From Nautiliaceae bacterium (lineage in GTDB: Bacteria; Campylobacterota; Campylobacteria; Campylobacterales; Nautiliaceae), in NCBI GenBank assembly GCA_027083695.1, contig JALWNI010000081.1:1-47072 (forward strand): DNA of 47,072 nt. The letters run 5' to 3'. The translations under genes were made by a program, and so were the position numbers. Below, piece by piece: positions 24,396-33,935 of this stretch (positions are counted from its first letter, which is position 1; the number at the start of each line of letters is the position of its first letter). The notes under the pieces are model-generated. The model had not been told where the DNA came from. It ran no database searches and saw only the letters and a program-made list of their open reading frames with translations.

Positions 24396-24409
24396 TGGCG
24401 GAGAGTGTG
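24396..24409. repeat. attL core direct repeat
   Basis: TGGCGGAGAGTGTG, identical to 33922-33935. Confidence 0.85.
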
Positions 24410-24533
24410 TCCGCCAAACTTATGTTTTAGATAGTTTCAGTATGTATTAATGACAAGTTTAAAACCCCTTATTTTAGGGAAAGTATTATATCACATTGTT
24501 TCAGTTAGTTTCAATAAAGCAATATATTTTTTT

Positions 24534-24554
24534 GGGGGTAATATTGGGGGTAAT
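24534..24554. repeat. Left-end tandem GGGGGTAATATT/GGGGGTAAT (12-bp period)
   Basis: Direct reading; related copy at 33845-33866. Confidence 0.7.
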
Positions 24555-24598
24555 GAAATTAAGGAACAGAACTTGCTTTTTCTTTTAAAAGGCTTGAT

Positions 24599-25774
24599 AT
24601 GAGTTTGACAGATTTAAAAATCAAAGGTGCAAAACCAAAAGAGAAAAAATACAAATTATATGATAGTGATTATCTATATTTAGAGGTCTATCCAAACGGC
24701 AAAAAGCAATGGATTTATAAGTATAAAAATCTTAAAGAGTTTAAAATAGGAAATTATCCTGCTTTAAGCCTTAAAGAAGCAAGGATTAAAAGAGACCAGC
24801 TAAAAAGGGATATTGAGCTTAAAGGCTTGGATAAAGTAGTAGAGGAATTAAAAGAGCTTAAATTACAGCCTAAAAGAAGATTTGAAAATGTAGTAAATGA
24901 ATGGCTTAGTATCTACAAAAAAGGAAAAGCTAAAAGAAGCGTCACTACTACCTTACAGCGTTTGCAAAAGCATATTATCCCTGCTTTTAAAGGCAGGGAC
25001 ATTTCAAAAATAACCACTAAAGAGATATACAGCTTATTAAAAAAAGTTGAAAAGCCAACAGCAGAAAAACTAAAATCAATCCTTAACGGCATTTTTAGTT
25101 ATGCACTCAGTAAAGAGTATATAAAACACAATATCATAAAAGATATAGAACTAAAACAGCTTTTCCATACCTCAGCAAGCAATCATTATCCACATACTAT
25201 TAATATTGAAGAAATTAAAATTTATTTTGATGAGGTAAAAGATTTAAGCAATAGACCTATCGTTAAAGGTGCAATAAAAACAATCTGGCTCACTGCTTTA
25301 AGACAAGGCAGCGTTAGAGCTATAAAATGGAAACATATTGATTTTAATAATAAGGTTTTATTTATTCCAAAAGATAACCTGAAAATTAAGGCGGTAGATT
25401 TTAAAATACCTTTAACAGATGAAGCTGTTAAAACATTTAGAGAACTTGAAAAGATAAAGGCAAGTGATTATGTTTTTTATTCAAGTAATAATCATAAAAA
25501 GCCTATAAGTGAGACAGCATTAAGGAAATTTCAAAAAGATATAGCTAAAAAATATAATATTGCCTATCAGTCATTACACGGCATAAGACATTCATTTTCC
25601 AGCCTTACAAGGCAGTATCTCCAAAGAGAATATAATATACAAGATGAAGTTATAGAAATAGCTATGCAGCATTTAGACAAAAACAAAGTAAGAGCAGTTT
25701 ATAACCATTATGACTATTTCAAAGAGAGAAAAGAGCTTTTAGAACTTTGGGAAAATTTCCTGTTTAATCTTTAA
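24599..25774 (+). CDS. int: P4-type tyrosine recombinase/integrase
   Basis: N-terminal DUF4102-like arm-binding domain (LTDLKIKGAKPKEKKYKLYDSDYLYLEVYPNGKKQWIYKY), C-terminal TALRQGSVRAIKWKHID and LHGIRHSFSSLTRQYLQ...VYNHYDY. Confidence 0.92.
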   Translation: MSLTDLKIKGAKPKEKKYKLYDSDYLYLEVYPNGKKQWIYKYKNLKEFKIGNYPALSLKEARIKRDQLKRDIELKGLDKVVEELKELKLQPKRRFENVVNEWLSIYKKGKAKRSVTTTLQRLQKHIIPAFKGRDISKITTKEIYSLLKKVEKPTAEKLKSILNGIFSYALSKEYIKHNIIKDIELKQLFHTSASNHYPHTINIEEIKIYFDEVKDLSNRPIVKGAIKTIWLTALRQGSVRAIKWKHIDFNNKVLFIPKDNLKIKAVDFKIPLTDEAVKTFRELEKIKASDYVFYSSNNHKKPISETALRKFQKDIAKKYNIAYQSLHGIRHSFSSLTRQYLQREYNIQDEVIEIAMQHLDKNKVRAVYNHYDYFKERKELLELWENFLFNL

Positions 25775-25780
25775 TAACTC

Positions 25781-25963
25781 TTCTCCACTTTTTTCTTTTA
25801 GAGGTAGGGTGAAAAAATAAAAATAAAAAAAATTTTTTTTTATAAAAAAAACTGCGAAAATGGAGAAAATATTATAAAAAGCCTAAATTTAGGGATTTTG
25901 TTTCTCCACTTTTTAAAAAAAAGAGGCTTAAAATTGGAGAAAAACTGGAGAAAAAATGGAGAA
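25781..25963. repeat. TGGAGAA/TTCTCCA repeat cluster downstream of int
   Basis: TGGAGAA at 25861, 25935, 25946, 25957; inverted TTCTCCA at 25781 and 25902. Three direct copies have an 11-bp period. Confidence 0.6.
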
Positions 25964-26006
25964 CTCTTAATTAAAAATTAAAAGAAAAAAATAAATAATA
26001 AACCTC

Positions 26007-26089
26007 ATCATTAAAGGCTTTTATAAGTAAGGTATCGGTAAAATATAGATACCTTTAAGGCGGTAACAAACCATTCACCCCTTAATGAT
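26007..26089. ncRNA. Candidate nested stem-loop structure
   Basis: Outer ATCATTAA(A)GG / CCCCTTAATGAT; inner perfect hairpin AAGGTATC-N11-GATACCTT (26029-26055). Confidence 0.3.
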
Positions 26090-26172
26090 TTATAACGAAG
26101 CTCATTTTATAACCTAACTATTAGCTACCTCATCCTTTACAGGCTTTTAGTTTCCGTATTAGCAAATAATTA

Positions 26173-26415
26173 TTAATAAGCCTCTTTTCTATGCTTAACG
26201 CTTAATACCTGTATAATTTCATCTTTTACATCAAAAAGCACTCTATAATTACCAACTCTAAACCTATAAGGCGGATAGTGATTTGTGAGCTTTTTAATAT
26301 TTGGAGTATTTGGATAATCTTTTAAAAGTTTGATTTTATCAAAGATAATTTTTTGATATTTTTTATCTATCTTTTGCAAATCTTTTAAAGCACTCTTTGA
26401 GATTTCAATTCTCAT
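26173..26415 (-). CDS. RelE/ParE-family toxin
   Basis: MRIEISKSALKDLQKIDKKYQKIIFDKIKLLKDYP...YRFRVGNYRVLFDVKDEIIQVLSVKHRKEAY. Confidence 0.9.
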   Translation of the reverse strand: MRIEISKSALKDLQKIDKKYQKIIFDKIKLLKDYPNTPNIKKLTNHYPPYRFRVGNYRVLFDVKDEIIQVLSVKHRKEAY

Positions 26416-26791
26416 TTATAACCTTAAGTGCTTCATCAAGGCTTATAAATTCATCATCTTTTTTATCCGCTTTTGCCTCTTTAATATTGATACTTTTAAC
26501 TGGGTATTCTCCTAATTTATCGCTTATTGTCTCTATAACGTCATTCACAGCCTCAAAAAGTTCATCAAGTGCTTTTATATATCTCTTTATTAAAATGTCG
26601 TCTATATCCTCTAAAAGCTGATTTAATTCCTCACTGAAAGCTATAAATTCGGCTCTGTTTTGTTTTACTTCTGTATCAGGTAAGGATGTAATTATTTCAT
26701 TTATTAATTTAGCTTTTCCGATAAGCTCCTCTATATTTTCATTTTTTAAATTGAATTTGAATAATTTAGCAGGGTTTATTTGCATAGTCAT
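26405..26791 (-). CDS. Putative cognate antitoxin with a long helical N-terminal region
   Basis: Overlaps the relE-like gene by 11 nt; C-terminal DEFISLDEALKVINEN resembles antitoxin tails; ~100-aa N-terminal part not recognised. Confidence 0.65.
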   Translation of the reverse strand: MTMQINPAKLFKFNLKNENIEELIGKAKLINEIITSLPDTEVKQNRAEFIAFSEELNQLLEDIDDILIKRYIKALDELFEAVNDVIETISDKLGEYPVKSINIKEAKADKKDDEFISLDEALKVINEN

Positions 26792-32326: not shown

Positions 32327-32839
32327 ATGTTAATGGGGTTGATAATATTTGCAGTTGAAATAATATTAGCTTATTTTTTAGGAATAGTTTTATTTTATGT
32401 AGGCGTATTCTTTTTCGGGGCTTTATTAGCAATAGGAGCGGGGATATATTTTGCCTTTAAATGGATAATGGCTCATATTATTGAAATCACAGCAGTAATT
32501 GGAATTATTGCAGCAATAGTTTATCTTTTAATCTTCATCAAAAGAAAAAGAGTTATCCCAAGAGTTTATCAAGCAGTTAAAAGCAGATTGTCAGTTACAG
32601 GTAAAATTATAAGTAAAGCAGTTAGACCGATAAAAGAGTGGAATGAAAGAAATAAACCAAAAGATATAAAGTCAATGAAAAAATATGGAGTTGTTTCTTT
32701 TTTAATTGGAACTATTGGAGCAGTGATATTTTATCTTAATGACTTATGGTATATAGCTTTATTCTATCTGCTTTGGATAATAAGCGGTATATATCAAATG
32801 TTATATCCTCAAAAAGCATTAGAACAGATAAGAAAATGA
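32327..32839 (+). CDS. Small integral membrane protein, unknown function
   Basis: 170 aa with several hydrophobic segments; AAAGG upstream. Confidence 0.65.
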   Translation: MLMGLIIFAVEIILAYFLGIVLFYVGVFFFGALLAIGAGIYFAFKWIMAHIIEITAVIGIIAAIVYLLIFIKRKRVIPRVYQAVKSRLSVTGKIISKAVRPIKEWNERNKPKDIKSMKKYGVVSFLIGTIGAVIFYLNDLWYIALFYLLWIISGIYQMLYPQKALEQIRK

Positions 32840-32858
32840 GTAGGTTCTGTTTAAAGGG

Positions 32859-32893
32859 AAATTTCGGTGCGGCCACTTGCGACCGCAAAATTT
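32859..32893. terminator. Hairpin downstream of the membrane protein gene
   Basis: AAATTT(CGG)TGCGG-N10-CCGCA-AAATTT, followed by an AT-rich tract. Confidence 0.4.
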
Positions 32894-33011
32894 ACACACT
32901 CAATAAGATTTTTTTAGGTTTACATAATTCAATAATCATTTTTGAAACTTACCTTTAAAACTACCATAAATAGGGAGATATAAGCACTTTTAGTAAAAAT
33001 CATTATGTAAC

Positions 33012-33233
33012 ATTCAGGGAATGTTTTTTAATTTTCTTACATTATATAGCAGTTTTTCATTTCCTGAATTTCTGAAGTAGAAAAAATTAGTTTGTATGTC
33101 TAAAATCTGGGGTCACAAGCAGCCGCAAGTAAACCTGATACTGGAAAGAACCTAAAAGAACCCAAAAGGACCTTAAAGGTCTGTGGGGCCTTTGAAGTAA
33201 AAATCGTATGCGGTGGTCGCCAACCCCAGTTTT
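33012..33233. ncRNA. Candidate structured non-coding region near attR
   Basis: 12-bp stem ATTCAGGGAATG/CATTTCCTGAAT (33012-33069); stem AAAA(T)CTGGGGT/ACCCCAGTTTT with inner GCCGCA/TGCGGT (33102-33233). Confidence 0.35.
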
Positions 33234-33247
33234 CACACACACACAAA

Positions 33248-33369
33248 GTTAACTAAAAAGTGGTTAACTTTTTTAATTAAATATTTTTAAGAAAATATGG
33301 TAATATCGCTGTTTTAAAGCACTGTAAAAAAGTTAACTGAGTAGTTAACTGGTTAACTTTTTGGTTAAC
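33248..33369. repeat. GTTAAC repeat cluster
   Basis: GTTAAC at 33248, 33263, 33332, 33344, 33352, 33364. Confidence 0.65.
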
Positions 33370-33844
33370 TCTTTTATATATACAGGGGGCGGGTTTGAAA
33401 TTTTTTAGGCTAAACCTATTCACCGGCGGCTGGGTCACGAAAAAACAAAAACTGATTTTAGGGGAGTGGGGGTATCCTGCTTATGCAACATAAAAAGCAA
33501 CATTTCAAAAACTTCCACAGCTTCCTTTTTACAGGCTTTTTAACTGCATTTAAAAGCGAAAAAGCAACAGCTTATCAATAAAGGAAACACGGCTTTAAAA
33601 GTTTCCATTTGGAAGTTTCCAAAAGTTTCCATAAAAAGTTTACAAATATTTTAAAAAGTTGACAAAAGTTAACAAAATTTTTATAAACTGATAACAGAAT
33701 ACAAAGTTTAATTTAAGTATGTTCCAAAATGGAAAATACCACTTAAAGATAAACTGGTAACAAAATATAATTTTTGACTTCTAAAGTTTACAAATTCCAC
33801 ACTATAAAAAAGAGGTTAATTTTTTGTAAGCAACACTCATTTTT

Positions 33845-33866
33845 GGGGGTGATAGTGGGGGTATTG
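33845..33866. repeat. Right-end tandem GGGGGTGATAGT/GGGGGTATTG (12-bp period)
   Basis: Related to 24534-24554. Confidence 0.7.
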
Positions 33867-33921
33867 ATTTTTGACTACCTCAACGTATCCCCGATATTTA
33901 GGGAAGTTTTAATATTTTGAA

Positions 33922-33935
33922 TGGCGGAGAGTGTG
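33922..33935. repeat. attR core direct repeat (tRNA-Ser 3' end)
   Basis: TGGCGGAGAGTGTG, identical to 24396-24409. Confidence 0.85.

Follow-up and report, generated by a model that had tools for sequence, protein, structure and literature searches.

A probable cos-type phage satellite integrated at a tRNA-Ser gene of a Nautiliaceae bacterium

Most known phage satellites come from Enterobacterales, Vibrionaceae and Gram-positive cocci, and no published satellite from Campylobacterota was found in our searches of the literature (open-licence papers). We analysed a window of 47,072 nucleotides, the whole stretch of contig JALWNI010000081.1 in the Nautiliaceae bacterium assembly GCA_027083695.1; family placements of genomes follow kinship labels and one titled record. 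This genome of a vent bacterium carried a discrete 9.5-kb element inserted in a tRNA gene at window positions 24396–33935. A preceding annotation made from the letters and open reading frames (ORFs), hereafter the sequence-only reading, had suggested that this is either a phage satellite or an integrative plasmid, in a lineage where such elements are little described, and the literature searches agreed with the latter remark. Judged by its sequence, the element is very probably a cos-type phage satellite, capable of its own replication and dependent on the terminase of a helper phage for packaging. The satellite was favoured over the integrative plasmid because the element has a cos block in common with tailed phages, whose genomes supplied the evidence on packaging that the sequence-only reading lacked.

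Gram-negative phage-inducible chromosomal islands (PICIs) of the EcCICFT073 type have, like the element, an integrase gene (int), AlpA, a primase-replicase with an origin of replication (ori) and no virion genes, and they carry the helper cos in place of terS; EcCICFT073 has two cos sites (PMC6092414). The combination of AlpA and a primase-replicase with adjacent ori was present in the element, in which CHC2-like, TOPRIM and ATPase genes were followed by an iteron array. In contrast to the PICIs, the element was located in a tRNA-Ser gene of a Campylobacterota host, its primase and helicase were separate genes of other families, its backbone proteins of 115, 126, 74 and 57 aa had no family match, and its helper dependence is predicted. 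The phage-inducible chromosomal minimalist islands (PICMIs) of Vibrionaceae resemble it in their minimal content, in the int-AlpA-primase set and in having no capsid-remodelling genes; the model primase of PICMIs is DUF3987/DUF5906, and they are packaged as multimers in full heads (PMC10803314). The integration site of PICMIs is fis and their helpers are virulent, whereas the element had tRNA-Ser(GGA) rather than fis as its target, was larger (9.5 kb) and contained toxin-antitoxin (TA) cargo and a lambda-type cos. P4-like satellites share int, an AlpA/Vis-type regulator, a primase-helicase, an iteron origin and a helper-shared cos with the element, which differed from them in that searches of Pfam, PHROGs and NCBIfam yielded no match to Psu, Delta, Sid or epsilon and in that the helper cos was lambda-type, not P2-type. 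Since the backbone proteins lacked a family match, the target was not fis and helper dependence was only predicted, we class the element among cos-type satellites rather than among PICIs in the strict sense; it would work in the manner of PICIs and PICMIs but shared only their general plan.

Approximately 1 kb at the right end of the element was without a convincing gene, yet parts of it were better conserved than any other DNA in the family. It contained a phage cos region (33185–33374, plus strand) with a core, TGCGGTGGTCGCCAACCCC, that was identical in five Nautiliaceae elements with unrelated integrase types and differing replicases, and with cosB-like GTTAAC repeats (33249–33374, plus strand) between the predicted cut site (cosN) and the end of the region. 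An exact 19-mer of the core occurred in 5 of the 21 Nautiliaceae genomes, always within such elements, and only in those five among the 349 genomes of the order. The sole further match in Nautiliaceae (one mismatch) was located in the G048 prophage, upstream of terS and terL. As a control, the reversed pattern gave one match in the 349 genomes with up to two mismatches. A core match in G087 was dropped, as it lay inside a coding gene and its flanks differed.

In a scan of 2.9 million viral contigs, the core was found in L100, L101 and L124. These are tailed phages encoding TerS, TerL and a portal protein; L100 and L101 also encode a head protease and a major head protein. In all three and in the G048 prophage, the block was placed between a neck/tail-completion gene and terS-terL, directly upstream of the terminase genes, where lambda-type phages keep cos. 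BLASTN aligned window positions 33210–33374 with the IMG/VR phage L101 from the core through the GTTAAC repeats (84%, 169 bp, E = 3.6e-42), and the repeats also matched DNA just before terS in phage L120 (88%, 110 bp). An origin of transfer (oriT), a small RNA and a terminator were rejected as identities of the block: Rfam gave nothing credible, and the phage context settled cos. As a separate observation, L124 combined an L100-like portal with a TerL/TerS/cos set like that of the G048 prophage, i.e. an apparent exchange of packaging modules among putative helpers.

A related satellite, L028, had cos together with the first 34 codons of terS (80% over 284 bp, E = 3.5e-62), after which the similarity broke off; its terS stretch reads MKLVTQAELAKHLKVSKPYINKLVKKGVFDNCFDG, compared with MKLVTQAELARELNVSKPYITKLVKKGVFDNCFDG in L101. 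The stub is a molecular fossil and records capture from a phage. A phage cos with a terS stub beside a tRNA gene offers a cheap bioinformatic handle for satellites that are missed by gene-based models. The same terS fragment in a phage-like context would suit a decayed prophage remnant that has retained int, replication genes and cos. We consider such an origin scarcely credible, as decay would not yield the recurring compact form that was observed: a precisely bounded gene set of 8–10.5 kb recurred at different tRNA and transfer-messenger RNA (tmRNA) genes in many genomes, its genes were intact and free of head or tail gene remnants, and different replicases were found on one backbone.

No recognised virion or conjugation genes had been seen in the sequence-only reading, and profile searches bore this out. 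PHROGs searches of 10 element ORFs gave no credible head, tail or lysis match, nor any capsid-forming genes such as those of capsid-forming PICIs, and a relaxase was not seen in Pfam, PHROGs or NCBIfam, although such searches miss oriT-only elements. The lack of virion genes, together with an own replication module with iterons and a TA pair, is plasmid-like and would be expected of an integrative plasmid, or of an element mobilised by conjugation in trans, that acquired a phage cos by chance. This explanation is very unlikely given the missing relaxase, an ATPase that matched nothing in 72,556 plasmids, and the retention of the cos block across five elements whose integrases and replicases are unrelated, a pattern not expected from chance capture. 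The ATPase also had no match in phage records.

The cut site was placed by comparison with SNW-1, a prophage of Sulfurimonas indica. The published PhageTerm analysis of reads placed 5' cohesive ends of 12 nt at AGTGCATAGCCC, where terS starts; the SNW-1 TerL groups with lambda-type 5'-cos terminases (PMC11290706). SNW-1 is a complete 37-kb phage and not a satellite, and its cosN core sequence differs, but its TerL is 48% identical to that of phage L100 and it has the same arrangement of GGGTCCTT and cosN before terS. In the orientation used here, the SNW-1 overhang reads GGGCTATGCACT and begins 21 nt after GGGTCCTT (L121). In G048 and L101, GTGGTCGCCAAC starts 20 nt after GGGTCCTT; the window shows the same 20-nt distance of GTGGTCGCCAAC from GGGGCCTT. 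Because this spacing aligns with the SNW-1 overhang, we predict a 12-nt cosN, GTGGTCGCCAAC, at 33213–33224. By their position between cosN and terS, the GTTAAC repeats would be the counterpart of lambda cosB. In an earlier study, cos use by a PICI was inferred because the PICI and its helper had a 258-bp stretch in common (PMC10111431); the argument made here for the element takes the same form.

Upstream of this block, an alignment of the five elements revealed a degenerate second cos-like block of another type (A-type; 32839–32925, plus strand), and block alignment an inverted copy of it (33081–33185, minus strand). The A-type sequence reads GGGTCCTN ... TGCGGGCACTCGCGACC. Better versions were present in L028 and in L036, an element of another family, and in phage contig L122 the block was located upstream of or next to terS. 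Up to three cos-like blocks, in the window one inverted and two degenerate, might suggest an anti-phage island of satellite-like build, its cos copies serving chiefly to decoy the helper terminase and less as its own packaging signal. We regard a decoy as highly improbable: the B block (33185–33374) retained cosN and cosB in phage order and orientation, int and the replication genes were retained as for a mobile element, and packaged satellites with two cos sites are known (two functional in EcCICFT073, two putative in SaPIbov4; PMC6092414).

For the cos-type satellite we propose the following cycle. Infection by, or induction of, a helper phage would turn on AlpA, and Int, with AlpA or another excision factor, would excise a circle. 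The CHC2/TOPRIM/ATPase set would then fire an origin at 32074–32279 and generate multimers. Helper TerS/TerL would bind the GTTAAC repeats, cut at 33213–33224 and load the satellite DNA into helper heads, probably in multimeric form because no capsid-resizing gene was recognised in the element. After injection, the DNA would integrate into tRNA-Ser of the new cell. Several points weigh against the satellite: its induction, packaging and transfer are predictions; the circle (attP) was not observed; the window has GGGGCCTT in place of GGGTCCTT, with one mismatch; and the family assignment of the ATPase is weak. In addition, the window's own genome (80% complete) contained no TerL prophage and hence no resident helper, and the viral contigs yielded no relative of the ATPase, integrase, TOPRIM or 57-aa proteins in scans that reach close relatives only. 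The results provide sequence evidence for helper-dependent satellites in Nautiliaceae (Campylobacterota). The packaging signal and candidate helpers (IMG/VR contigs and a Nautiliaceae prophage) are resolved at the level of single bases, which makes the system directly testable.

The boundaries of the element agreed with those first proposed from 14-bp direct repeats. The repeat, TGGCGGAGAGTGTG, had exactly two copies in the window, one at the tRNA-distal end (24396–24409, plus strand) and one at 33922–33935 (plus strand), which is the 3' end of a minus-strand tRNA-Ser(GGA) gene (33922–34011; ARAGORN). The element was thus bounded by a repeat of the tRNA 3' end, and the target gene was kept intact. 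An empty attB was found in the congener G191, in which the left flank, a single 14-mer and tRNA-Ser were contiguous in the same gene context. There, L045 positions 1209–1793 matched the left (deaminase-side) flank of the window, 1865–1924 matched window positions 24349–24409, and 1911–2019 matched 33922–34030. Since the empty site has one copy, the repeat is not due to chance. Flanking repeats in relatives, the existence of this empty site and an intact integrase all agreed with the mobile element first suggested. Not part of that suggestion were the arm sites, both iteron arrays and the phage cos region at the right end. The arm sites are 53-bp direct repeats containing GGGGGTNATANTGGGGGTA inside each end of the element, at 24504–24556 (TTTGGGGGTAATATTGGGGGTAATGA) and 33815–33867 (both plus strand, 74% identical); the right repeat also occurred beside tRNA-Ser(TGA) in G169. 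Their placement is as expected of integrase arm sites flanking attP on both sides. Contigs L070 (G136:C19) and L071 (G158:C72) of two congeners stopped precisely at the tRNA-Ser(GGA) 3' end, a break in the assembly that an occupied or polymorphic att site might have caused.

The element encoded an intact tyrosine integrase with an arm-DNA-binding domain (24599–25774, plus strand; Pfam PF13356/PF00589/PF22022). Its location at the end away from the tRNA, which had already been pointed out, was common to the Nautiliaceae elements with both ends visible and is the normal layout of the element family. A relative was identified on contig JALVUH010000154 (Nautiliaceae, same genus as the window genome). 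In G169, a 93% identical integrase adjoined a core with the sequence TGGCGGAGAGGGTG, and the same right end, including its arm sites, abutted tRNA-Ser(TGA); therefore, the family uses at least two tRNA-Ser genes. A second metagenome-assembled genome thus carried a near relative of the element at tRNA-Ser(TGA), with 93% identity in the integrase and 86–97% in the core genes. The G169 pieces were on three contigs whose joining is uncertain, and the genome contained at least two replicase cassettes. The region upstream of int in L039 (G169), which has a VapB-like gene in common with L005, was rejected as a circular junction, as the copies were 94% identical and the flank was without arm sites. 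Other elements were integrated at tRNA-Met (G147; 29-bp att repeat, 9.4 kb), tRNA-Leu (G075, 36-bp, 8.2 kb; L030, 14-bp, 8.6 kb), tmRNA (L029; 17-bp, 10.5 kb) and tRNA-Phe (L037; 34-bp, 9.7 kb).

Three separate, consecutive plus-strand genes formed the replication cassette. The first encoded a CHC2-like primase domain without zinc-ligand cysteines (29416–29697; Pfam PF01807, E = 1.6e-6; 76% in L028), and the second a TOPRIM-motif primase-like protein (29684–30493; E162 and D208xD210 by motif alignment). Relatives of the latter were found in 24 of 397 genomes of the class, and most of the neighbourhoods read also contained int, AlpA and a CHC2 domain. The third gene encoded a replicative ATPase/helicase candidate with the Walker-A-like motif SPTSMGKS (30504–31886; 86% in L005, 26% in L033). 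The family of this third gene varied: it was DUF5906/D5-like in L074, L028 and L029, DUF3987 in L031 (E = 8e-53) and, weakly, in L033 and the window, and AAA_25 in L034, L036 and L037. The window ATPase had no Pfam match, and its profile link to L031 was weak. In place of the whole cassette, G147 and G075 had one protein that belongs to no known family. AlphaFold models of the ATPase (predicted local distance difference test, pLDDT, 40; predicted template modelling score, pTM, 0.26) and the TOPRIM protein (pLDDT 42, pTM 0.35) were too poor for a fold search. Downstream of its replicase, L036 (11314–12922) encoded a ResIII/DEAD helicase and also a VRR-NUC nuclease, which may serve in anti-phage defence or in resolution.

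Directly downstream of the ATPase gene, eight GGGACAAT/ATTGTCCC iterons (32074–32279; shuffle mean 0.03) formed a candidate origin and were absent elsewhere in the window; L005 had ten and L074 none. The DNA of L074 matched the window as far as position 29413 and once more from position 32299 on, with the replicase and iterons in between replaced and TGGAGAA iterons present instead. This joint replacement is the best evidence for the GGGACAAT array as the cognate origin. Replicase and iterons exchanged as a unit represent a natural experiment on satellites avoiding shared origins. The window also contained an iteron-like array of six TGGAGAA copies on both strands (25781–25963; shuffle mean 0.05). 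It adjoined int, as did the same array in L039, and matched the array beside the DUF5906/D5 helicase of L074. In the window this array was an orphan, its apparent cognate DUF5906 helicase being absent. We read it either as a remnant or as a second array of the kind that crr represents in P4. A broader, doubtful possibility is an undescribed family of minimal Campylobacterota cos-satellites that exchange initiator/helicase and cognate iteron origin as one cassette. The orphan TGGAGAA array might then serve for replication by, or competition with, the DUF5906-type replicase of a co-resident satellite, and several cos-type blocks might widen the helper range.

The remaining genes comprised regulators, a TA pair and the backbone proteins; the gene list of the sequence-only reading was confirmed, with a tyrosine integrase, AlpA, a ParE-type toxin, separate CHC2-like and TOPRIM genes and a Walker-A-like ATPase. 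A ParE/RelE-type toxin (26173–26415, minus strand; Pfam PF05016, E = 2.9e-13; phrog_1213) was adjacent to a putative antitoxin (26405–26791, minus strand) with a 70% identical partner in the G147 element; the pair differed between relatives and is accessory. An AlpA-family regulator/excisionase (27375–27563, plus strand; Pfam PF05930, E = 7.3e-8) and a small divergent helix-turn-helix (HTH) protein, a candidate repressor (28243–28461, minus strand; Pfam HTH_19, E = 2.8e-4, below the curated cut-off; 62% in L028), were also encoded. The backbone proteins, all on the plus strand and without a family match in Pfam or NCBIfam where tested, were a conserved 115-aa protein (27782–28129; 30–94% identity in the L074, L028, G147 and G075 elements) and proteins of 126 aa (28603–28983; 96% in L005, 42% in the G075 element), 74 aa (28994–29218; 68% in the G075 element) and 57 aa (29240–29413; 61–88% in four other elements), the last gene before the swapped cassette. 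An ORF for a small membrane protein (32327–32839, plus strand) was also present in L074. The 115-aa gene was preceded by a 20-nt leader, AAACTTTTAAGGAGAGGAAATGA (window 27763–27785), common to the leaders of head and tail genes in L100, L101 and the G048 prophage; it may be a phage-derived leader for translation or a regulatory site. PADLOC gave weak matches only.

Further observations concerned other elements. In L028 (17373–18576), the integrase of the G015 element was split into two overlapping frames, and this copy may be stuck in place; it carried SocA/Panacea-type and PIN-domain (VapBC-like) TA genes. The tmRNA-integrated relative L029 (4767–6720) had, by appearance, an IS21-type istA/istB-like pair between integrase and AlpA. 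Finally, a second, distant integrase (24% identity; G000:C179:2908-3645, L002) was located on an 8.8-kb contig of the window's own genome and perhaps marks another integrated element.

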